Positions 156 to 16,129 of a stretch of 64,000 nt of DNA are shown piece by piece. How positions within the stretch are numbered: position 1 is the stretch's first letter; the number at the start of each line of letters is the position of its first letter. The DNA lies in the NCBI GenBank assembly GCA_016192425.1, contig JACPUE010000068.1, forward strand, positions 1-64,000, written 5' to 3'. Source of the DNA: Burkholderiales bacterium. Its GTDB lineage: Bacteria > Pseudomonadota > Gammaproteobacteria > Burkholderiales > Burkholderiaceae_C. The notes under the pieces were generated by a model. It searched no databases and was not told the origin of the DNA. It saw only the letters and a program-made list of their open reading frames with translations. A program made the translations under genes and the position numbers.

Positions 156-635
156 TCAGGGCTTGACCGGAATCGGCAGGCTGCGCTCCACCGGCACGGC
201 GGTGACGCTGTTTTGCGGCGAGCCGTCGATGAGCTTGTCGGAGTAGGTCAGGTACACCAGCACGTTGCGTTTGGTATCCACCATGCGCACGATGCGCAGG
301 CGCTTGAACAGGATGGACATGCGTTCGCTGAACACTTCTTCCTGTTTTTTGAGCGGTTCGGCAAAGCTGATCGGGCCGACCTGCCGGCAGGCGATGGATG
401 CCTCGGCGCGGTCTTCCGCCAGGCCCAGCGTGCCCTTGAGGCCGCCTTTGCGGGCACGCGAGACGTAGCAGGTCACGCCCTGCACGGCAGGGTCGTCGTA
501 AGCCTCGACCAGGATGTCGTGATCCCGCCCTATCCACTGGAAGGCGGTGTCCACGGTGCCGATTCTTTCACCCGAGGCCGCCTGTGCCGCCAGGGCCAGC
601 AGCAGGGCGGGGAGGGCCAGGGCGCTGCGCATCAT
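156..635 (-). CDS. creA: CreA family protein (putative periplasmic)
   Basis: 159 aa. It begins MMRSALALPALLLALAAQA, a clear signal peptide, followed by the CreA core (ERIGTVDTAFQWIGRDHDI, YDDPAVQGVTCYVSRARKG, KRLRIVRMVD). CreA proteins are small exported proteins of unknown biochemical role. The start overlaps the stop of the upstream cyanophycin synthetase by 4 nt (ATGA), followed by a second in-frame ATG, so translation is probably coupled. The family call is firm. A functional tie to cyanophycin is only suggested by the coupling. Confidence 0.88.
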   Translation of the reverse strand: MMRSALALPALLLALAAQAASGERIGTVDTAFQWIGRDHDILVEAYDDPAVQGVTCYVSRARKGGLKGTLGLAEDRAEASIACRQVGPISFAEPLKKQEEVFSERMSILFKRLRIVRMVDTKRNVLVYLTYSDKLIDGSPQNSVTAVPVERSLPIPVKP

Positions 636-3211
636 GCGCCCAGCCGGGGTTCTGCGCAGCGCTGTGCGAGGTGTGCCAGGGCTTCTTCCACCTGATCGAC
701 CAGTACCAGGCACAGGTCGCCGGGTTGCAGGTGCGCCAGGGCGGTGTCTATGGCCAGGAATTCGCCCCGGATTTCCTCCACATGCTGGGTGCGTGTGGCG
801 CCCGCCAGGCCTTCGCGCAGCAGGCCGATGACTTCGCCATCGGCACGGCCGCGCTGGGCGGCGTCCTGGTACAGGATCACGTCGTCGAACGCGGCGCCCA
901 GGATCACGGTTTGCACGCGGATGTCCTCGTCGCGCCGGTCGCCCGCACCGCTGATGACCACGCTGCGGCGCTGGCCGGGCAGGGCATTCACGGCCTGCAC
1001 CAGGGCGCGCATGGCGTCGGGGTTGTGGCCGTAGTCGGCAATCACGGTGGCGCCGTGGTAGTCCATCAGGTTGAAGCGGCCGGGGGCGTTGTCGCTGTCG
1101 TTGACAAAGCCCGACAGCCCGCGGCGGATGGTCTGCCAGGGCAGGCCTGCGCCCCAGGCGGCAGCCACGGCGGCCATGACGTTCTCGACCTGGAACAGGA
1201 TTTTTCCGCCTCGCGTGATCGGCACGTCGCGCAGGTGGATGGTTTCGCGCCAGGAGCCTTCGGCGGCCACGATGGAGTCGCCATCGACATACACCGTGCG
1301 GTGCCCCTGGGCCCGGTGGGTGACCATGACCGGGTGCAGCCGGTCGCTGGCAAAGTAGATGACCTTGCCCGGACACACGCTGGCCATGGCCGCGACGATG
1401 GGATCCATGGCGTTGAGCACGGCGTAGCCCGTAGGGGCCACGTTCTGCACGATCACGCGCTTGAGCACGGCCAGGTCGTCCACCGTGGTGATGTAGTTCA
1501 GGCCCAGGTGGTCGCCTTCGCCAATGTTGGTGACCACGGCCACCTGGCAGCGGTCAAAGCCCAGGCCTTCGCGCAGGATGCCGCCGCGCGCCGTTTCAAA
1601 CACGGCGGCGTCCACCTCGGGGTGCAGCAGCACGTTGCGCGCGCTCTTGGGGCCGCTGCAGTCGCCGCTGTCGATCTGGCGGCCGTTGACGTATACGCCG
1701 TCGGTGTTGGTCATGCCCACGCGCAGGCCCTGGGCCGAGAACAGGTGGGCGATCAGGCGCGCCGTGGTCGTCTTGCCGTTGGTGCCGGTGACGGCGACCA
1801 CGGGAATGCGGCCGTCCTGCCCATGGGCGTAGAGCCGATCCACGATGGCCTGGCCGATGGCGCGGGGCTTGCCGTAGCTGGGCGCCAGGTGCATGCGCAG
1901 GCCGGGGGCGGCGTTCACCTCGACAAAGCCGCCGCCTTGTTCTTCGAGCGGGCGCAGCACGGTCTCGGCCACCATGTCCACGCCGCAGATGTGCAGGCCC
2001 ACCATCTGGGCGGCGGCTACGGCGCGCGCAGCCACTTCGGGGTGCACGTCATCGGTCACGTCGGTGGCGGTGCCGCCGGTGGACAGGTTGGCGTTGTTGC
2101 GCAGCACCACACGGCGGCCCTTCTCGGGCACGGCGTCGGGCGTGAGGTTTTGCAGCGCCAGGCGGGCAATGGCGATGTCGTCCAGGCGGATCTTGGTCAG
2201 CGCCGTGCCGTGGCCTGCACCGCGGCGCGGATCCTGGTTGACGATGTCCACCAGCTCGCGCACCGTGTGTTCGCCGTCGCCCAGCACCTGGGGCGGCTCG
2301 CGCCGTGCGGCGGCCACGAGCTGGTCGCCCACCACGAGCAGGCGGAAGTCCTGGCCGGGCAGGAAGCGCTCGACCATCACGGTGCCGTAGTCGGCGGCGT
2401 TCTTGTAGGCTTCTTCGAGCTGGGCGCGGTCGGTGATGTTGACCGTCACGCCCTTGCCCTGGTTGCCGTCCTGGGGTTTGACGACCACGGGCAGGCCCAC
2501 CTTCTGGGCCACGGCCCAGGCCTCGTCCACGGTCTCAACGGGCTGGCCCAGCGGCACGGGCACACCGGCGGCGTGCAGCAGGCGCTTGGTCAGGTCCTTG
2601 TCCTGGCCGATGGATTCGGCCACGGCGCTGGTGGAGTCGATCTCGGCGGCCTGGATGCGCCGCTGCTTGGAGCCCCAGCCCAGCTGCACCAGGCTGCCCT
2701 GGGTCAGGCGGCGGTAGGGGATGCCCCGGTCCACGGCAGCCTGGACGATGGCACCCGTGCTGGGGCCCAGGCGCACGTCCTCGTCCAGGTCGCGCAGGTG
2801 GGTGATGGCGGCTTCGGCGTCGAAGGGGCTGCCATCAAGTGCCGCCTGCACCAGTTGCCGTGCGTACTGGAAGGCCTGGCGGCCGACTTCTTCTTCGGTG
2901 TATTCCACGACAACGAGGAACACCCCTGCGTCCACGGTGGGCGTGGTGCGCGCAAAGCTCACCGGGCAGCCCGCCTGGGCCTGCAGCGCCAGGGTGGCGG
3001 TCTGCAGCACATGGGCGAGCGAAAGATCGGTTTCACCGCCCTGGGGCTGCAGCACGCCAATGGCGGGAAACAGCGCACGCAGCCGGGCCTCGAAGCCGTT
3101 GATGCGCGACATGGTGCATTCCTGCGTGGTGCAGGAAACCACGGCCTCGATGGCCAGGTGGCGGCTCCAGAGATTGGGCCCGCGCAGGGCCCTGATGCGG
3201 GTGACATCCAT
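632..3211 (-). CDS. cphA: Cyanophycin synthetase with intact Mur ligase domain
   Basis: 859 aa. CphA polymerises aspartate and arginine into multi-L-arginyl-poly-L-aspartate using two ATP sites. The N-terminal domain starts with IRALRGPNLW. The ATP-grasp domain (about 150-460) carries GLPVVVKPQDGNQGKGV and ends with FVEVNAAPGLRMHL. The Mur ligase domain (about 468-859) has an intact P-loop, GTNGKTTTARL, at about 476, plus ETARGGILREGLGFDRC and ADYGHNPDAMRAL. The N domain is shortened and divergent: the segment that in standard CphA and in the neighbouring paralogue carries an H-x3-EH-x3-E pattern is not recognisable. An AAGGAAG ribosome site lies just upstream of the ATG. It follows the paralogue with a 42-bp gap, so they form one operon with creA. 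Confidence 0.93.
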   Translation of the reverse strand: MDVTRIRALRGPNLWSRHLAIEAVVSCTTQECTMSRINGFEARLRALFPAIGVLQPQGGETDLSLAHVLQTATLALQAQAGCPVSFARTTPTVDAGVFLVVVEYTEEEVGRQAFQYARQLVQAALDGSPFDAEAAITHLRDLDEDVRLGPSTGAIVQAAVDRGIPYRRLTQGSLVQLGWGSKQRRIQAAEIDSTSAVAESIGQDKDLTKRLLHAAGVPVPLGQPVETVDEAWAVAQKVGLPVVVKPQDGNQGKGVTVNITDRAQLEEAYKNAADYGTVMVERFLPGQDFRLLVVGDQLVAAARREPPQVLGDGEHTVRELVDIVNQDPRRGAGHGTALTKIRLDDIAIARLALQNLTPDAVPEKGRRVVLRNNANLSTGGTATDVTDDVHPEVAARAVAAAQMVGLHICGVDMVAETVLRPLEEQGGGFVEVNAAPGLRMHLAPSYGKPRAIGQAIVDRLYAHGQDGRIPVVAVTGTNGKTTTARLIAHLFSAQGLRVGMTNTDGVYVNGRQIDSGDCSGPKSARNVLLHPEVDAAVFETARGGILREGLGFDRCQVAVVTNIGEGDHLGLNYITTVDDLAVLKRVIVQNVAPTGYAVLNAMDPIVAAMASVCPGKVIYFASDRLHPVMVTHRAQGHRTVYVDGDSIVAAEGSWRETIHLRDVPITRGGKILFQVENVMAAVAAAWGAGLPWQTIRRGLSGFVNDSDNAPGRFNLMDYHGATVIADYGHNPDAMRALVQAVNALPGQRRSVVISGAGDRRDEDIRVQTVILGAAFDDVILYQDAAQRGRADGEVIGLLREGLAGATRTQHVEEIRGEFLAIDTALAHLQPGDLCLVLVDQVEEALAHLAQRCAEPRLGA

Positions 3212-3253: not shown

Positions 3254-5461
3254 TCAAAGCGCCTGGGCGGCAGCGTGATCGGGTTCGAAGGTCTTGATGC
3301 CTGCGACGATGAGGTCCGGGGCAATGTCCAGTGCCCAGGCAGCGCCAATGGCGGCCAGCAGGGCATCGGTGTCGGGCGGTGTGGCGCTGCGGGCAAAGCA
3401 CAGTGCGCTCAAGGGGGCGATGGCCTGTTCGCTGCCACCCGTGGCCAGCACCACGCGGCCGCCCTTGATGAACACGGCGCGGCCCTGTTCCTGGGCGCGG
3501 TGCTGGGCAATGGCGTCCAGCCCGGCGTCCTGCGCGTACAGCACCACGGCACCGTCGCACAGCGGGGCCAGTTCGGCCACCTGGGCATGGGCCGCATGCA
3601 GCACGGCGGCGCCGCTGGGCAGCACCACATCGACCTGGGTGCGCAGCACCTTGGTCATTTGTTCCTGCTCGTGCACGTCGAATTCGGCCAGGCCTTCCAC
3701 ACCCAGCATGTCGGTGACCACGCCCACCTGGCAGCGGTCGTAGGCCAGGCCGTCGCGCAGGATCACGCGGGCGTCGTTCTCGATCACGGCGGCCTGCACC
3801 ATCTTGTTCATCAGCAGGCGGTGTGCGGGTTCCCAGTGTGCGCTGTCGGCAGCGTCCACGCGGCGGCGGTCCAGGAACAGGCCTTCGCGGCAGGCCAGCC
3901 CGGTGTGTTTGCCGCTCAGGTGCAGCAGCCAGGCCACCAGGCGCGCAATCAGGGGGGTGTTCTGCGTGCCCGCCACGCCCACCACGGGGATGCGGCCGAC
4001 GGGCTGGTCGGCATCGTCATGTTCTTCGGCGGGGAACAGGTGCTCCACGATGGCCTGCCCCACGGGGCGCGGCGCGCCGACGGCGGGCTTGAGGTGCATC
4101 AGCAGGCCGGGGCCGGCATTCACCTCGACAATGGCACCTCCCTGCGCCTGCAGGGGCTTGCTGATGTCCTGGGCCACCAGGTCGATGCCTGCAATGTCCA
4201 GTCCTACCACCTTGGCTGCCAATGCTGCCATGTGTGCCACCTCGGGGTGCACGTCATCGGTGCAGTCCACGGCCATGTTGCCATTGCGCTGCACCACCAC
4301 CACACGGCCCGCAGCGGGCACCGACTGGGCGCCCAGATCCTGGCGCTTGAGTTCGAGCTGTACCTTGGCGTCGGTCGCTACGTCGATGAGGTCCAGGGGG
4401 TATTCCTCTTCGTAGCCGCGGCGTGGGTCGGAGTTGAGCTGGGTGGCGATCAGTTCGGCCACCGTGGCGTGGCCGTTGCCGGTGATGCAGACCAGTTCCC
4501 CGCGCGCGGCAGCCACGAGCTTGCCGTCCACCACCAGCAGGCGGTGTTCGTCGCCGGGAATGTAGCGCTCGACCATCACATCGCTGCCCTCGGGGTAGGC
4601 CACGTGGTAGGCCGCCTCGATGTCTTCCTGCTTGCGCAGATCCAGGCTCACGCCCCGGCCATGGTTGCCGTCCGAGGGTTTGACCACCACGGGCAGGCCG
4701 ATGTCCTGCGCGGCCTCCCAGGCCTGGGCGGGGCTGTCGACGATCTGACCCTCAGGAATCGGTACGCCGCAGGACTTGAGCAGGCTCTTGGTCAGATCCT
4801 TGTCCGAGGCAATGCCCTCGGCGATGGCGCTGGTGCGTTCCGTTTCGGCCGTCCAGATGCGGCGCTGCGCTGCGCCATAGCCCAACTGCACCAGGTTGCC
4901 GTCGTTCAGGCGGATGTGCGGAATGCCCCGGTCGGTGGCGGCGGTGACAATGCAGGCCGTGCTGGGGCCAAGGTAGCGGTCGTCCACCTCGGTGCGCACG
5001 CGCGCCACGGCGGCCTGCACGTCGAAGGGCTCGTCGTTGATGGCGGCCATGATCAGGCGGTGGCCTTGCGCCAGTGCCATGCGGGCCACCTGCTCGTCGC
5101 GTGCGCGGAACACCATGCGGTACACACCGCGTGCCGAGGTGCTGCGTGTTTGCCCAAAGCCTGTGGGCATGCCAGCGAGGTTCAGCAGCTCGATGACGAT
5201 GTGCTCCAGCACATGGCCGCACCAGGTGCCCTCCTGCAGGCGCTGCAGGAAGCCGCCGCGTTCGCCCACGCCGCAGTGGTGCTCGATCAGCGCGGGCAGC
5301 CAGGTGGTCAGGCGCTCGTTGAAGCCGGGAATCTGGTGGGAGGGGTGGTCTTCGAGCGTGCCGAGATCCAGCCAGACTTCGAGCACCGGACGGTAAGTCC
5401 ACAGGTTGGGGCCGCGCAGGTAGTTGATGCGCAGCAGTTGGATGTCGTTGAATTTCGCCAT
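3254..5461 (-). CDS. CphA'/CphA2-like cyanophycin synthetase with degenerate Mur domain
   Basis: 735 aa. The N domain is full length (GFNERLTTWLPALIEHHC, GHVLEHIVIELLNLAGM at about 82-98) and the ATP-grasp domain is complete (GLPVVVKPSDGNHGRGV at about 255, IVEVNAGPGLLMHL at about 444). The Mur ligase P-loop, GTNGKTT in the neighbour, reads GTQNTPL here (about 498-504), so Gly-Lys-Thr is lost. The protein stops about 120 residues early and lacks the Mur C-terminal lobe. This matches CphA2 of cyanobacteria and CphA' of heterotrophs. CphA2 joins preformed beta-Asp-Arg dipeptides with one ATP site. It is the first gene of the leftward operon and is divergent from the ABC transporter. The exact substrate here is inferred, not shown. 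Confidence 0.88.
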   Translation of the reverse strand: MAKFNDIQLLRINYLRGPNLWTYRPVLEVWLDLGTLEDHPSHQIPGFNERLTTWLPALIEHHCGVGERGGFLQRLQEGTWCGHVLEHIVIELLNLAGMPTGFGQTRSTSARGVYRMVFRARDEQVARMALAQGHRLIMAAINDEPFDVQAAVARVRTEVDDRYLGPSTACIVTAATDRGIPHIRLNDGNLVQLGYGAAQRRIWTAETERTSAIAEGIASDKDLTKSLLKSCGVPIPEGQIVDSPAQAWEAAQDIGLPVVVKPSDGNHGRGVSLDLRKQEDIEAAYHVAYPEGSDVMVERYIPGDEHRLLVVDGKLVAAARGELVCITGNGHATVAELIATQLNSDPRRGYEEEYPLDLIDVATDAKVQLELKRQDLGAQSVPAAGRVVVVQRNGNMAVDCTDDVHPEVAHMAALAAKVVGLDIAGIDLVAQDISKPLQAQGGAIVEVNAGPGLLMHLKPAVGAPRPVGQAIVEHLFPAEEHDDADQPVGRIPVVGVAGTQNTPLIARLVAWLLHLSGKHTGLACREGLFLDRRRVDAADSAHWEPAHRLLMNKMVQAAVIENDARVILRDGLAYDRCQVGVVTDMLGVEGLAEFDVHEQEQMTKVLRTQVDVVLPSGAAVLHAAHAQVAELAPLCDGAVVLYAQDAGLDAIAQHRAQEQGRAVFIKGGRVVLATGGSEQAIAPLSALCFARSATPPDTDALLAAIGAAWALDIAPDLIVAGIKTFEPDHAAAQAL

Positions 5462-5693: not shown

Positions 5694-7997
5694 ATGCAAC
5701 ATCACCATCCATTGGACACATCGGGTGTCTTTCAAGGCCCCTTCGGGGCGGGTTTGCGGGCCATGCTCGCTTCTGACGAGAACGTGCGGGCCGCACTGGC
5801 GGTTGACCTTGACAGCGCGCTGCGCTTTGGCGCGGGCCTGGTCGTCGTGACCACGCGCCGCCTGCTGGCGCTGGCCCCTGGGCAGAGCGAATGGCAGGCC
5901 TGGAACATTGCTCCCCAGCTTTCGCTGCGCATGGGCGACCACGCGGGCGTCGGCACCCTGGAGCTGCACGACGCGCAGCAGCGCCTGGCGCTGTGGCGCT
6001 TCACGCTGGGGGCGCAGGCCCAGGCGCTGCTGCTGGTGCAGCGCTTCGAGCAGGCGGCCCAGAGCGCCGCAGGCACGCAGAGTGCTGCGCCGGAGGAAGC
6101 GCGCTGCCCCGTCTGCCAAGCCGAACTGCCCCCCGACAGCGAAGAATGCCCCGCTTGTGCGCGTGCGCAGGCCCCGCAGCCCTCCACCTGGGTGCTGCTG
6201 CGCCTGTGGCGGTTTGCGCACCCCTACCGGGGGCAGCTGGCGGCGGGGTTTGGGCTCACGTTGGCATCTACGGCGGCCACGCTGGTGCCGCCGTACCTGA
6301 CGATTCCGCTGATGGACGAAATCCTGATCCCGTTCCAGAACGGCCAGAAGATCGACCCCATGCTGGTGCTGCTGTACCTCTCGGGCCTGCTGGCTTCGGC
6401 GCTGGTGGCCTGGGGGCTGGGTTGGGCGCGCACCTACATCCTGGCGCTGGTGTCCGAGCGCATCGGCGCCGACCTGCGCACCACCACCTACGAGCACCTG
6501 CTGCGCCTGTCGCTGGACTACTTTGGCGGCAAGCGCACGGGCGACCTGATGGCGCGCATCGGCTCGGAGACCGACCGCATCAACGTCTTCCTGTCGCTGC
6601 ATGCGCTCGACTTCCTGACCGACGTGCTCATGATCGCCATGACGGCGGCCATCCTGTTTTCCATCAATCCCGCGCTGGCGCTGGTCACGCTGGTGCCGCT
6701 GCCCTTCATCGGCTGGCTGATCCACACGGTGCGCGACCGCCTGCGCACCGGCTTTGAAAAGATCGACCGCGTCTGGAGCGAGGTGACCAACGTGCTGGCC
6801 GACACCATTCCCGGCATCCGCGTGGTCAAGGCCTTTGCCCAGGAGAGCCGCGAGGCGCAGCGCTTTCGCGATGCCAACCAGCACAACCTGGAGGTGAACG
6901 ACAAGCTCAACCGCACCTGGTCGCTGTTTTCGCCCACGGTGTCCCTGCTCACCGAAATTGGCCTGCTGGTGGTCTGGGCCTTCGGCATCTGGCTGGTCTC
7001 GCGCAGCCAGATCACGGTGGGTGTGCTCACGGCCTTCATTGCCTACATCGGGCGCTTTTACGGGCGGCTCGATTCGATGAGCCGCATCGTCTCGGTCACG
7101 CAGAAGGCGGCGGCCGGGGCCAAGCGCATTTTTGACATCCTGGACCATGTGAGCAACGTGCCCGACCCGGCGCAACCGGTGAGGCTGGCCAAGGTGCAGG
7201 GTGCCATTGCCATGCGCGGTGTGGGCTTCCGCTATGGCAGCCGTGCGGTCATCCGCAACCTGGAGCTGGACATCCGCCCTGGCGAGATGATCGGCCTGGT
7301 GGGCCACAGCGGCTCGGGCAAGAGCACCCTGGTCAACCTGATCTGCCGCTTTTACGACGTGAGCGAGGGCTCGATCCAGGTCGATGGGGTCGATCTGCGC
7401 CGCTTTGCCGTGGCCGACTACCGGCGCCACATCGGCCTGGTGCTGCAGGAGCCCTTCCTGTTCTTTGGCACCATTGCCGAGAACATTGCCTACGGCAAGC
7501 CCGACGCCACGCGCGAAGAAATCATCGCCGCCGCACGCGCAGCGCACGCGCACGAGTTCATCCTGCGCCTGCCGCACGGCTACGACTCGCTGGTGGGCGA
7601 ACGCGGCCAGGGCCTCTCGGGCGGTGAGCGCCAGCGCATCAGCATTGCCCGGGCCCTGCTGATCGACCCGCGCATCCTCATCCTGGACGAAGCCACCTCG
7701 GCCGTGGATACCGAGACCGAGAAGGAAATCCAGAAGGCGCTGGACAACCTGGTGCAAGGCCGCACCACCATTGCCATTGCGCACCGCCTGTCCACCCTGC
7801 GCAAGGCCGACCGCCTGGTGGTGATGGATCGGGGCGAGGTTGTCGAGGTGGGCCCGCACGACGCCCTTATGGAGCAGCAAGGCGCCTACTGGCGGCTGTA
7901 CCAGGCCCAGGTGCGCCGCGCTGAAGAAGACGCGCAGGCCGCCGGTGTGGTCATCGACAGCAGCCTGCAGCACAGCGCCCACCCGGCAGGACAATGA
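5694..7997 (+). CDS. Cyanophycin-locus ABC transporter (half-transporter, permease plus ATPase)
   Basis: 767 aa. The N-terminal part (about 14-120) resembles a PH-like domain (VDLDSALRFGAGLVVVTTRR). A zinc-ribbon-like CPVC-x10-CPAC follows at about 138-155. Next is an exporter-type six-helix membrane domain (about 165-475), then a nucleotide-binding domain with Walker A GHSGSGKST (about 537), signature LSGGERQ, Walker B ILILDEATSA and an H-loop AIAHRLST. The NBD looks catalytically complete. It is divergent from the synthetases (232 bp between them) and coupled by ATGA overlap to a DUF1854 gene. The cargo is unknown. The locus suggests cyanophycin precursors, degradation products, or assembly. 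The ATG at 5694 is chosen because the N-terminal domain begins there; no strong ribosome site is visible. Confidence 0.88.
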   Translation: MQHHHPLDTSGVFQGPFGAGLRAMLASDENVRAALAVDLDSALRFGAGLVVVTTRRLLALAPGQSEWQAWNIAPQLSLRMGDHAGVGTLELHDAQQRLALWRFTLGAQAQALLLVQRFEQAAQSAAGTQSAAPEEARCPVCQAELPPDSEECPACARAQAPQPSTWVLLRLWRFAHPYRGQLAAGFGLTLASTAATLVPPYLTIPLMDEILIPFQNGQKIDPMLVLLYLSGLLASALVAWGLGWARTYILALVSERIGADLRTTTYEHLLRLSLDYFGGKRTGDLMARIGSETDRINVFLSLHALDFLTDVLMIAMTAAILFSINPALALVTLVPLPFIGWLIHTVRDRLRTGFEKIDRVWSEVTNVLADTIPGIRVVKAFAQESREAQRFRDANQHNLEVNDKLNRTWSLFSPTVSLLTEIGLLVVWAFGIWLVSRSQITVGVLTAFIAYIGRFYGRLDSMSRIVSVTQKAAAGAKRIFDILDHVSNVPDPAQPVRLAKVQGAIAMRGVGFRYGSRAVIRNLELDIRPGEMIGLVGHSGSGKSTLVNLICRFYDVSEGSIQVDGVDLRRFAVADYRRHIGLVLQEPFLFFGTIAENIAYGKPDATREEIIAAARAAHAHEFILRLPHGYDSLVGERGQGLSGGERQRISIARALLIDPRILILDEATSAVDTETEKEIQKALDNLVQGRTTIAIAHRLSTLRKADRLVVMDRGEVVEVGPHDALMEQQGAYWRLYQAQVRRAEEDAQAAGVVIDSSLQHSAHPAGQ

Positions 7998-8500
7998 AGG
8001 ACATCCCCATGGAACATTCCAGCGCCCCTTGCGCCGCCCCCCTGCAACTGCACCGCAACGCCCATGGCCATCTGGTGCTGACCCTGCCCGACGGCACTGC
8101 GCACAGCGGTGTGGTGCCGGTGCGCGCTTTCCCGCTGGCAGCACCGCAGGAAGGACTCTCGCTTGTCGGCTCAGATGGGCACGAACTGCTCTGGCTCGAC
8201 CGCTTCGATGCGCTGCCCGATGCGGCACGTGCGCTGGTGCAAGAAGAACTGGCGGTGCGCGAGTTTGTGCCCACTATCGTAAAAATCAGCGCAGTATCAA
8301 GCTTCTCTACACCCAGTACCTGGTCGGTGGAGACCGACCGCGGCCCCACGCGCTTCATCCTCAAGGGCGAGGAAGACATCCGCCGCCTGCGCGGGCGCAC
8401 CAAGCTGCTGATCGCCAGCGCCGAAGGGGTTCAGTACGCCGTCCCCGACACCACGGCATTGGACAAGGCCTCGCGCAAGCTGCTGGAGCGGTTTTTATAG
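7994..8500 (+). CDS. DUF1854 family protein, cyanophycin-associated
   Basis: 168 aa, no signal peptide or membrane segment. The body contains FPLAAPQEGLSLVGSDGHE, LVQEELAVREFVPTIVKI and GEEDIRRLRGRTKLLIASA, the pattern of DUF1854 proteins that accompany cyanophycin ABC transporters. Its ATG overlaps the transporter stop (ATGA), so the two are probably made in fixed ratio and act together. A plausible role is a soluble accessory or regulatory subunit of the transporter. No enzymatic motif was recognised. Confidence 0.85.
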   Translation: MKDIPMEHSSAPCAAPLQLHRNAHGHLVLTLPDGTAHSGVVPVRAFPLAAPQEGLSLVGSDGHELLWLDRFDALPDAARALVQEELAVREFVPTIVKISAVSSFSTPSTWSVETDRGPTRFILKGEEDIRRLRGRTKLLIASAEGVQYAVPDTTALDKASRKLLERFL

Positions 8501-8642: not shown

Positions 8643-9074
8643 ATGCAACTGCCACCTGTCGACCGATCTCCGATCTGGCGTCCCCAGGGCGCAGATCTGT
8701 ATTCCACCGGAGCTTCCGGGGCGGTGCCGGTGCGCCCCATCCACAACCCCAACCCAGTGGAGTCCATGGACCGGCTGGGCGAAGGTGCGGTGGTCAAGGC
8801 GCCCGAGAAGCCCTCGGATCCCGACACCACTAACCGCGACTGGACCATCGTCAAGGAAAAGAAAGCCGTGGAGGAGCCCCCCGAGCCCCCCAAGGAACCC
8901 ATTTACAAGCAACTGCTGGAGCATCTGCAGTCGCTCTGGCGCGCCAGCGGCAGCGCCATTGAACTGGCGCAGGAGGTCAACAAGACCACGCTGCAGGAGC
9001 GCATGGCTCCCCAGGCCAAGAACGAGCCGCTGACCTACTCCGACCCCAAGGTCAAGCGCACGGGCAGCCTGTAG
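8643..9074 (+). CDS. Hypothetical protein, proline- and charge-rich
   Basis: 143 aa, not recognised. The first half is rich in Pro, Gly and Asp and is probably disordered. The middle has a Lys/Glu/Pro stretch (KEKKAVEEPPEPPKEP). The last 50 residues look helical (IYKQLLEHLQSLWRASGSA) and end in a basic tail. No signal peptide. The gene is separated from the DUF1854 gene by 142 bp and ends directly before an AT-rich repeat, so it is probably its own transcription unit. The ATG at 8643 is the first codon of the frame. Confidence 0.65.
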   Translation: MQLPPVDRSPIWRPQGADLYSTGASGAVPVRPIHNPNPVESMDRLGEGAVVKAPEKPSDPDTTNRDWTIVKEKKAVEEPPEPPKEPIYKQLLEHLQSLWRASGSAIELAQEVNKTTLQERMAPQAKNEPLTYSDPKVKRTGSL

Positions 9075-13509: not shown

Positions 13510-14617
13510 GGCGTTTCTTGCGAGAAGGGCGGGGGGCCGTGGCAGCTTGCTGCGCATCGGGCGGTGCTGGCAGGCTCAGGCGTACCTGGTACAGGCCGTC
13601 CTGCACACCGGCGCTGAAGTCGGCCTGCACATCGTGCAGCAGCGACAGGCGGGCGCGCACGTTGGCCAGCGCAATGCCGTGGCCGCGGGACACATCGCCC
13701 TTGCTGGCGCGCTCGTCGGGCAGGGTGTTGGTGATGCGCACCACCACCCGGCTGCCGCGCAGCTCGGTCAGCACGCGCAGCTTGCCGCCCAGGGTGCTGG
13801 GCTCCACCCCGTGCTTGACGGCGTTTTCCACCAGCGGCTGCAGCAGCAGCGGCGGCAGCAACGCGGCGTCCGCGCGCGGGTCGAGCTGCCACTGCACGCG
13901 CAGGCGCTCGCCGAAGCGCACCTGCTCGATGGCGAGGTAGCGACGCGCGAGCCGGATTTCGTCGGCCAGGGTCACGGCTTCGCCTTGTTCGACCAGGGCG
14001 GAGCGGAACAGGTCGCTCAGGTCTTCGAGCAGAGACTCGGCCTTGGCGGGTTCATCGCGCACCAGTGCGATGGCGCTGTTGAGCGAGTTGAACAAAAAAT
14101 GCGGGCGGATACGCGACTGCAGTTCGGTGAGCCGCGCCGTGGTGGCCGCCGGGGTGCGCCCGCGTGCGCGCAGCACCAGTGCTGCCACCAGCAGCGCCGC
14201 CAGCAAGGCGCCGCTGGCGGCGCTGGCGATCCAGGGCGCGCGCTCGGTGTTGGCCACCATCTGCGTGATGGCGCAGGCCCCCAGCCCCGCCAGGGCGCCC
14301 AGTACCACGCCTGCGGTGTACTGGCCATGCGTGCTCAGGCGTTCGAGCCACTGCTTGAGGCTGCAGGCCGCCACCAGCCAGGCCAGTGTGGCAGGCAGTG
14401 CCACGCCGGTGAGCAGTGCCAGCCGTGCCAGCCAGTCAGGCGGTGAATCGGCCCCGTAGAGTGCGCCAACACCAATCACGGCCTCGACGAACAGCACCGC
14501 GCGCAGCACCACACCGGCATGGCAGGCATCGAACACCAGTGCGCGCCCAGCCGCCAGCGTGGGGCGCGCAGCTGCAGGGGTGTCGGGCAGGATCGATAAA
14601 ATTTGCGTTTCTTGCAT
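13487..14617 (-). CDS. Sensor histidine kinase of the LytS/AlgZ type
   Basis: 376 aa. The N-terminal half has about four hydrophobic segments ([65 protein letters not shown]). The His_kinase domain contains [19 protein letters not shown] with the phospho-accepting His. The ATPase domain has [16 protein letters not shown] (N box) and [13 protein letters not shown] (G box). It is the partner of the overlapping LytTR regulator and is divergent from argH, with 51 bp shared between the starts. Confidence 0.9.
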
Positions 14618-14668
14618 CGCGGCATCCGGGCGCACCGGGTGTCTGTTCCACCGGATTATTGCCCTCCC

Positions 14669-16129
<1,461 letters not shown>

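Follow-up and report, generated by a model that had tools for sequence, protein, structure and literature searches.

We analyzed a stretch of 64,000 nucleotides from a Burkholderiales bacterium (the window; positions 1 to 64,000 of contig JACPUE010000068.1), which carries a gene for an ABC half-transporter followed by a gene for a DUF1854 protein. In the window this pair, on the forward strand, is divergent from two genes on the reverse strand, cphA2' and cphA1, which encode paralogues of cyanophycin synthetase. Computed over the genomes sampled here, the four genes form one module, by membership as well as by co-occurrence, and across our sample of the order Burkholderiales this module replaces cyanophycinase. 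The source contig has 134,749 bases and belongs to a genome (G000) of 3.67 Mb in 68 contigs that is 99.99% complete. The module has the following features.

5694..7997, + strand: ABC exporter-type half-transporter of the NF052233 family, 767 aa (NCBIfam, 1438.9 bits against a cut-off of 880)
5694..6104, + strand: predicted PH-fold module, about residues 1-137 of the transporter, with a folded core at about residues 16-125 (AlphaFold2 model, Foldseek)
6105..6158, + strand: putative zinc ribbon CPVC-x10-CPAC, residues 138-155 (conservation; weak match to Zn_Ribbon_1 below its cut-off)
7994..8500, + strand: DUF1854 protein of the NF052234 family, 168 aa, with an alternative start at 8009 (NCBIfam, Pfam)
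3254..5461 (stop included), - strand: CphA2', 735 aa; N-site Cx19HxxEH and G-domain His kept, Mur-ligase domain degenerate and truncated
632..3211 (stop included), - strand: CphA1, 859 aa; Mur-ligase site intact, N-site lost, G-domain His replaced by Gln

The transporter matches NF052233 ("cyanophycin metabolism-associated ABC transporter") over residues 11-749, and the DUF1854 protein matches both NF052234 ("cyanophycin metabolism-associated DUF1854 family protein"; 232.7 bits, cut-off 150) and PF08909 (162.9 bits, cut-off 26.8). Because of the two NCBIfam scores, a chance resemblance is excluded. The window proteins are clear members of these families, whose names state an association and give no mechanism or cargo. 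A first-pass annotation of the window, made from the sequence alone, had described a half-transporter with a PH-like and CPVC/CPAC head coupled to DUF1854, and had connected the pair with cyanophycin. The first part is borne out by the open reading frames (ORFs), the family scores and a model of the head, and the second by the two CphA genes alongside and by the passing of both cyanophycin-associated cut-offs. The overlap that it reported between the stop codon of the ABC gene (7995-7997) and the start of the DUF1854 gene holds for the first ATG (7994) and is lost with the second; ATG 8009, which has an AAGGA at a better spacing, may be the true start, 11 bases past the ABC stop. The two genes are closely coupled with either start. 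Counts of such overlaps among the homologues, taken from the earliest possible start codon, exaggerate overlap and were disregarded.

Distribution of the module and absence of cyanophycinase

To survey the module, we drew 150 genomes evenly from Burkholderiales, covering 51 families (the order sample). A further 80 named loci were the best matches to the query; they partly repeat the sampled genomes and were used for gene order and motif counts only. DUF1854 was found in 50 of the 150 genomes, and the identical 50 genomes have the ABC family over its cut-off. All 50, which belong to 24 families, carry cphA. In 48 of them it exceeds the family cut-off; one further genome (G011) has a CphA2' and a CphA1 broken in two, and in another (G030), which has CphA2', the contig end truncates CphA1. 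Both CphA2' and the transporter were present in the fetched loci of 50/50 genomes, the window included, and orphan copies of the ABC or DUF1854 gene lacking cphA were found in 0/50 genomes of this sample. The converse situation, cphA with no match to DUF1854 or to the ABC family, occurred in six genomes (G041, G086, G127, G113, G122 and G136). In G122 a contig end cuts the module inside the ABC gene, with the head present, and G136 is 79% complete and has a partial cphA. Fourteen of the 51 families are mixed for DUF1854; in 12 of these no member without DUF1854 has cphA, and the remaining two families are those of G122 and G136. A Fisher test of DUF1854 against cphA gives 1.6e-33, uncorrected for phylogeny.

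The association does not require the genes to be adjacent. The two halves of the module are unlinked and yet both kept in G146, at a distance of 0.8 Mb; they are also both kept in G115 and G034, separated by about 13 kb and 8 kb, respectively. The usual order is the divergent one seen in the window. In 10 of the 80 named loci, among them those of Nitrosospira, Nitrosomonas, Accumulibacter and Azonexus, all four genes point the same way, as ABC-DUF1854-cphA2'-cphA1; two of the 50 sampled genomes (G063 and G111) show this co-directional order as well. CphA is present in 77 of the named loci, and the other three are short contigs or contig ends. Among the named loci, the cph genes of the window are closest to those of Rhodoferax, Variovorax, Polaromonas and one Burkholderiales metagenome-assembled genome (MAG), which suggests that the window comes from a Comamonadaceae-like betaproteobacterium.

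A second sample comprised 299 genomes of Pseudomonadota and overlaps the order sample (the phylum sample). CphA was detected at 1e-120 in 20 of these genomes and DUF1854 in 16, all among those 20. Only one of the 16 lies outside the order (G328, 8% contamination); its short contig carries the ABC gene, DUF1854 and one CphA. Scanning named genomes also turned up the module in Thermomonas and in a possibly misbinned MAG that bears the label Desulfovibrionaceae. By its own criterion, the first-pass annotation would have been refuted by a co-occurrence with cphA confined to close relatives, and it was not: the co-occurrence extends across the order, although outside the order the module is rare.

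The annotation had also proposed a survey for cyanophycinase and isoaspartyl dipeptidase, and in this survey the genomes with the module differed sharply from the other cphA genomes. When the order and phylum samples were taken together, a strong cyanophycinase match (>200 bits) was found in 1 of 56 genomes with DUF1854, whereas 8 of 10 CphA genomes lacking DUF1854 have one (Fisher test, 7e-8, uncorrected); the two misses among the latter are G122 and G136. The four near-complete order genomes that have cphA and no DUF1854 (G041, G086, G127 and G113) score 233-251 bits, and three of them have the cyanophycinase gene at most about 2.2 kb from cphA; in G086 it is on another contig, beside CphA-like genes. 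The corresponding genomes of the phylum sample (G233, G406, G230 and G431) score 231-278 bits, with the gene within 300 bases of cphA. In the sole strong case with DUF1854, G056, the cyanophycinase gene adjoins a second, separate cphA pair. This second cyanophycin locus (L149) contains two cphA genes, cyanophycinase and IaaA, which indicates that both kinds of system can coexist. With the family cut-off in place of 200 bits the ratio becomes 4/56 versus 8/10. The three matches gained in this way, from G102, G068 and G021 at 136-163 bits, belong to reading frames 407-424 residues long and are perhaps extracellular types.

The genome of the window has no cyanophycinase match, and none is encoded at the locus, which does not qualify as a classical cphAB locus. 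Among the 50 order genomes with DUF1854, IaaA (PF01112 at 1e-20) was found in 13, never adjoining the module, IadA (at 1e-40) in none, and no S51 peptidase match at 1e-8 in 41. In 35 of the 50, G000 included, we found no cyanophycinase, IaaA or IadA over the thresholds used, in a search that did not extend to the cyanophycin dipeptide hydrolases of 2023 to which PMC10206079 refers. The missing cyanophycinase of Betaproteobacteria or of individual members has been noted earlier (PMC5178258, PMC5670224, PMC10687191).

The neighborhood of the module in the window contains the following genes.

156-635, - strand: CreA family gene (PF05981, 188 bits); its start and the stop of CphA1 overlap
8643-9074, + strand: 143-aa ORF downstream of DUF1854, found in 6 searched loci including the window
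14603-16129, + strand: argH, argininosuccinate lyase, an arginine-biosynthesis neighbor about 6 kb downstream

We place CreA outside the module because it is present in only 4 searched loci, window included. At the thresholds used, the 143-aa ORF matched nothing in Pfam or NCBIfam. The immediate flanks of the window module, occupied by these two genes, are free of insertion sequences. No further conserved partner was prominent within 10 kb among the 45 largest neighbor clusters, which were inspected by eye and derive from crude ORF calling that includes antisense frames.

Complementary site loss in the paired synthetases

CphA1 of the window matches TIGR02068 (cyanophycin synthetase 1) with 977.4 bits (cut-off 850). 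CphA2' scores 688.6 bits, below this cut-off, and belongs to the subfamily NF010623 (1042.4 bits, cut-off 877). In the Synechocystis CphA1, the N domain (Cys59, His79, Glu82, His83) cuts chains to provide primers, the G domain adds Asp and is inactivated by H267A, and the M domain adds Arg and is inactivated by D585A H586A, as reported in PMC9262961; the positions of Cys59 and His79 were assigned here by matching to the motif. Site residues were located by alignment to solved chains and then counted by column over the module proteins.

The N site of CphA2' (C/H/E/H) is complete in 51 of 51 proteins, and its G-site His is present in 50 of 51. In CphA1, Cys59 is retained in 0 of 52 rows (51 of them gaps, fragments included) and His83 in 1 of 52. 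The G site of CphA1 carries Gln in 48 of the 50 readable rows, and its M-site Lys, Asp and His are present in all 50; all four distinct solved CphA1 proteins have the G-site His. Thus, in most pairs each paralogue keeps the sites that the other has lost. The catalytic effect would presumably be a division of labor. The cyanobacterial CphA2, which repolymerises beta-Asp-Arg, is similar in being an additional CphA-like protein with only one ligase site (PMC10206079 reports one active site). However, it reportedly has no N-domain active-site motif (PMC9262961), and therefore CphA2', which has the motif throughout, differs from that enzyme.

The ABC-DUF1854 pair of G328 (L187) is divergent from a single CphA that has the N and M sites and Gln at the G site. 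This arrangement possibly represents a state before the synthetase was split, in a contaminated assembly whose contig ends there.

The transporter, its head and the DUF1854 protein

The core of the transporter consists of an ABC_membrane domain (PF00664, residues 184-457) and an ABC_tran domain (PF00005, residues 521-669). The solved proteins most closely related to it include the ABCB-type proteins TM_0288 and MsbA, and the ATPase motifs (Walker A, signature, Walker B and H-loop) are present in 48-49 of 50 homologues. By these sequence criteria the protein is an ABCB/MsbA-type exporter, for which outward transport is predicted. With MsbA and other ABCB-type exporters it shares core architecture and ATPase motifs; it differs from MsbA in falling below the equivalog cut-off (TIGR02203, 467.5 bits against 602), in its partner genes and in a far more conserved membrane domain. 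We know of no PH/zinc head in the MsbA family.

We compared the conservation of the transporter with that of MsbA, which is present in 28 of 30 genomes carrying this transporter and served as a control. Identity in the membrane domain was 76.1% for the transporter (27 genomes) and 42.5% for MsbA (25 of these genomes, two MsbA sequences having been missed by the motif filter); in the ATPase domain the values were 78.8% and 61.0%. This difference suggests that the membrane domain recognizes a specific cargo or binding partner and does not belong to a multidrug pump. Over the 50 homologues, the mean fraction of the most common residue was 0.84 in the membrane domain, 0.85 in the ATPase domain, 0.53 in the head and 0.50 in the zinc linker, which makes the head and the linker the most variable of the four regions measured. 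Two aspartates, D306 and D310, are at least 98% conserved and lie in a stretch assigned to the membrane by a rough hydropathy scan, which gave only four membrane-like stretches and approximate boundaries. Conserved acidic residues in the membrane region would be well matched to a cargo rich in arginine.

The head comprises about residues 1-165, including the CxxC pairs CPVC (138-141) and CPAC (152-155). Its AlphaFold2 model, built from a 59-sequence alignment, has a pLDDT of 90.2 and contains seven strands and a C-terminal helix. In a Foldseek search against the PDB, nearly all of the 50 matches listed were, by title, PH, PH-like or talin/FERM domains, with probabilities of 0.93-1.00; the best E value was 1.4e-3, so that none reached 0.001, and the TM-score over the query was at most 0.46. 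The predicted fold of the head is a PH fold, a seven-stranded barrel capped by the C-terminal helix. The Pfam family bPH_3 matches weakly, in 7 of 59 heads.

Each of the four ribbon cysteines is listed as at least 90% conserved in the 59 aligned heads. The two-CxxC pattern occurs in 112 of 129 homologous ORFs, with a spacer of 10 residues in 109; these ORFs come from the named and sampled loci together, so that some genomes are counted twice. Four of the 17 ORFs lacking the pattern are ORF artefacts, and the other 13 were inspected in part. The motif is conserved, though some homologues do without it; it is a putative zinc ribbon, with a weak match to Zn_Ribbon_1. Four transporters (L158, L172, L153 and L129, in G082, G124, G075 and G003, respectively) have a head that the family model leaves unmatched, and there the head may be diverged, reduced or missing.

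The model of the DUF1854 protein is beta-rich (pLDDT 85.7), and neither structure nor sequence searches gave a convincing relative in the PDB. No DUF1854 gene was found on plasmids, and the term had no match in the literature searched. A 927-aa frame joining the ABC and DUF1854 proteins in the draft genome of Cupriavidus basilensis OR16 (L104, 7613-10396) may result from a frameshift and was not used as a natural fusion.

Possible roles of the module

The most informative facts about this module are that cyanophycinase is absent and that the two synthetases have decayed in a complementary way; neither was in the first-pass annotation. Its description of an undescribed system was too strong. 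NCBIfam names both families, and Farmer et al. (2023) describe a "Group 1" cphA cluster in activated-sludge bacteria with two cphA genes, an unclassified ABC transporter and no cphB (PMC10687191). The association is therefore already in print for activated-sludge genomes, and the module is named, its mechanism being uncharacterised in the literature searched. Section 3.3 of that paper is silent on DUF1854, the PH/zinc head, the order-wide replacement of cyanophycinase and the complementary site loss. Cyanophycinase replacement, site loss and head fold are new as far as we searched the literature.

The reading that we favor, tentatively and at rather less than even odds, is that the ABC-DUF1854 pair is the membrane partner of the split synthetase and moves cyanophycin-derived material out of the cytoplasm. 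CphA2' would supply the primer-making, chain-cutting N site and the Asp-adding G site, and CphA1 would supply the Arg-adding M site. The transporter, probably a homodimer of the ABCB/MsbA exporter type driven by ATP, would export short beta-Asp-Arg oligomers or the dipeptide from the cytoplasm, while the PH/zinc head and DUF1854, on the cytosolic side, would probably dock the synthetase or its product. The first-pass annotation had raised the movement of cyanophycin-derived dipeptides, and their export, or that of oligomers, is in this sense a live inference. If cyanophycin-derived material is exported, no cytosolic cyanophycinase is needed, and the fact that a dedicated exporter-type transporter, and not cyanophycinase, accompanies the split synthetase suggests a product that leaves the cytoplasm and is not stored. 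ABCB-type peptide exporters can handle a size of 1.1 kDa. The N-domain activity of Synechocystis gives mainly (beta-Asp-Arg)4, a product of 1.1 kDa (PMC9262961). The fuller version of this reading is a secreted-cyanophycin system, in which the divided-site synthetase makes and trims short chains and the PH-headed ABC exporter with DUF1854 delivers them outside the cytoplasm; we hold it to be rather doubtful.

A number of observations weigh against export. Neither Fisher test is corrected for phylogeny, and no outer-membrane or periplasmic partner was prominent in the crude inspection of neighbor clusters. The zinc ribbon is missing in some homologues, and the family match to the transporter begins only at about position 150-160 in 4 of 50 genomes. 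The division between the synthetases is incomplete: the full M-site set (ATP-site Lys, Asp and His) is kept by CphA2' in 6 of 51 proteins, and CphA1 retains His79 in 44 of 52 rows, Glu82 in 33 of 52 and the G-site His in 2 of 50 readable ones. The G-site Gln is no proof of inactivity, since it also occurs in G056, in the cphA pair linked to cyanophycinase, and in the single CphA of G328. At 1e-3 the cyanophycinase family is matched in 7 of the 50 DUF1854-bearing order genomes, in four of them over the cut-off, and Tetrasphaera has two cphA genes in series beside cphB (PMC10687191). The control genome of Sulfolobus acidocaldarius has DUF1854 over the cut-off, with neither this ABC family nor a CphA at 1e-120, so that DUF1854 has another role there. 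According to reviews, cyanophycin is not detectable in Cupriavidus necator H16 despite its two cphA genes (PMC11362209, PMC8560796), a result that fits export and equally fits inactive or conditional enzymes. The H16 cph genes gave no cyanophycin in E. coli either (PMC8560796), where the transporter is presumably absent, a failure that speaks for enzymes without activity or with conditional activity and not for export.

The classical cphA-cphB storage locus has the synthetase in common with this one and differs in the cyanophycinase that is missing here. Ordinary intracellular cyanophycin, made by the split synthetase and recycled in an unusual way, is, in our estimate, a rather doubtful account: the CphA2' N domain or another enzyme would replace cyanophycinase, and the ABC-DUF1854 pair would only dispose of or take up dipeptides or arginine. 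The ABCB-type core, which is normally that of an exporter, argues against this, as does the lack over thresholds of IaaA in 37 of 50 genomes and of IadA in all 50, the dipeptide hydrolases of 2023 again being outside the search. The invariant N-site residues of CphA2' agree with such recycling, and the N site of Synechocystis CphA1 is a slow endo-cyanophycinase giving mainly tetramers; however, the slowness of that activity and its yield of oligomers, not dipeptides, speak against it (PMC9262961). Expression data also point both ways, since Accumulibacter in reactors transcribes cphA, both copies evenly, which was read as storage (PMC10687191), whereas Accumulibacter in a full-scale plant shows very low cphA expression (PMC12455942). 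We consider it unlikely that the transporter carries an altogether different cargo (surplus arginine, for instance, or a lipid or metal-linked signal) that these cells need, with a metabolic and not a physical link to the cph genes. MsbA moves lipid, and together with TM_0288 it places the best solved relatives in a functionally broad group; the persistence of unlinked pairs in G146 would also fit. This account has to contend with the co-occurrence with the synthetase pair in 50 of 50 genomes and with the four genomes of the cyanophycinase type (G041, G086, G127 and G113), in which neither DUF1854 nor the ABC family is matched.

The first-pass annotation had suggested that the pair might anchor granules to the membrane. 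A tether of this kind, in which the head and DUF1854 hold the synthetase or granules and transport is secondary or lost, seems improbable to us. PH folds often bind membranes or proteins, and the head fold is predicted with confidence, but beyond this fold nothing in our results supports an anchor. Intact ATPase motifs and a strongly conserved membrane domain would be needless for mere anchoring, and the head and zinc linker are the least conserved regions. Passive hitch-hiking on a mobile cluster is very improbable. A composite transposon has been proposed from insertion sequences that flank the cluster in activated-sludge genomes (PMC10687191, section 3.3), and the module is patchy within families. 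The flanks of the window, with the CreA gene and the 143-aa ORF, show no such elements, while separated halves that are still kept together, strong sequence constraint and the absence of orphan copies among the 50 genomes argue against passive carriage.

The cyanophycin genes of Betaproteobacteria have been read as nitrogen storage, for example with a view to nitrogen recovery from wastewater (PMC10687191). This reading may be wrong if the common module of the group mostly lacks known degradation enzymes and comes with a transporter and a split synthetase. If the secreted-cyanophycin reading is true, the betaproteobacterial "cyanophycin genes" would not be nitrogen-storage genes, and the missing cyanophycinase and the undetectable polymer of Cupriavidus necator would be explained; export would offer a concrete reason why such synthetases gave no polymer in Cupriavidus necator and E. 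coli. The old puzzle of cphA lacking cyanophycinase becomes testable by one deletion.

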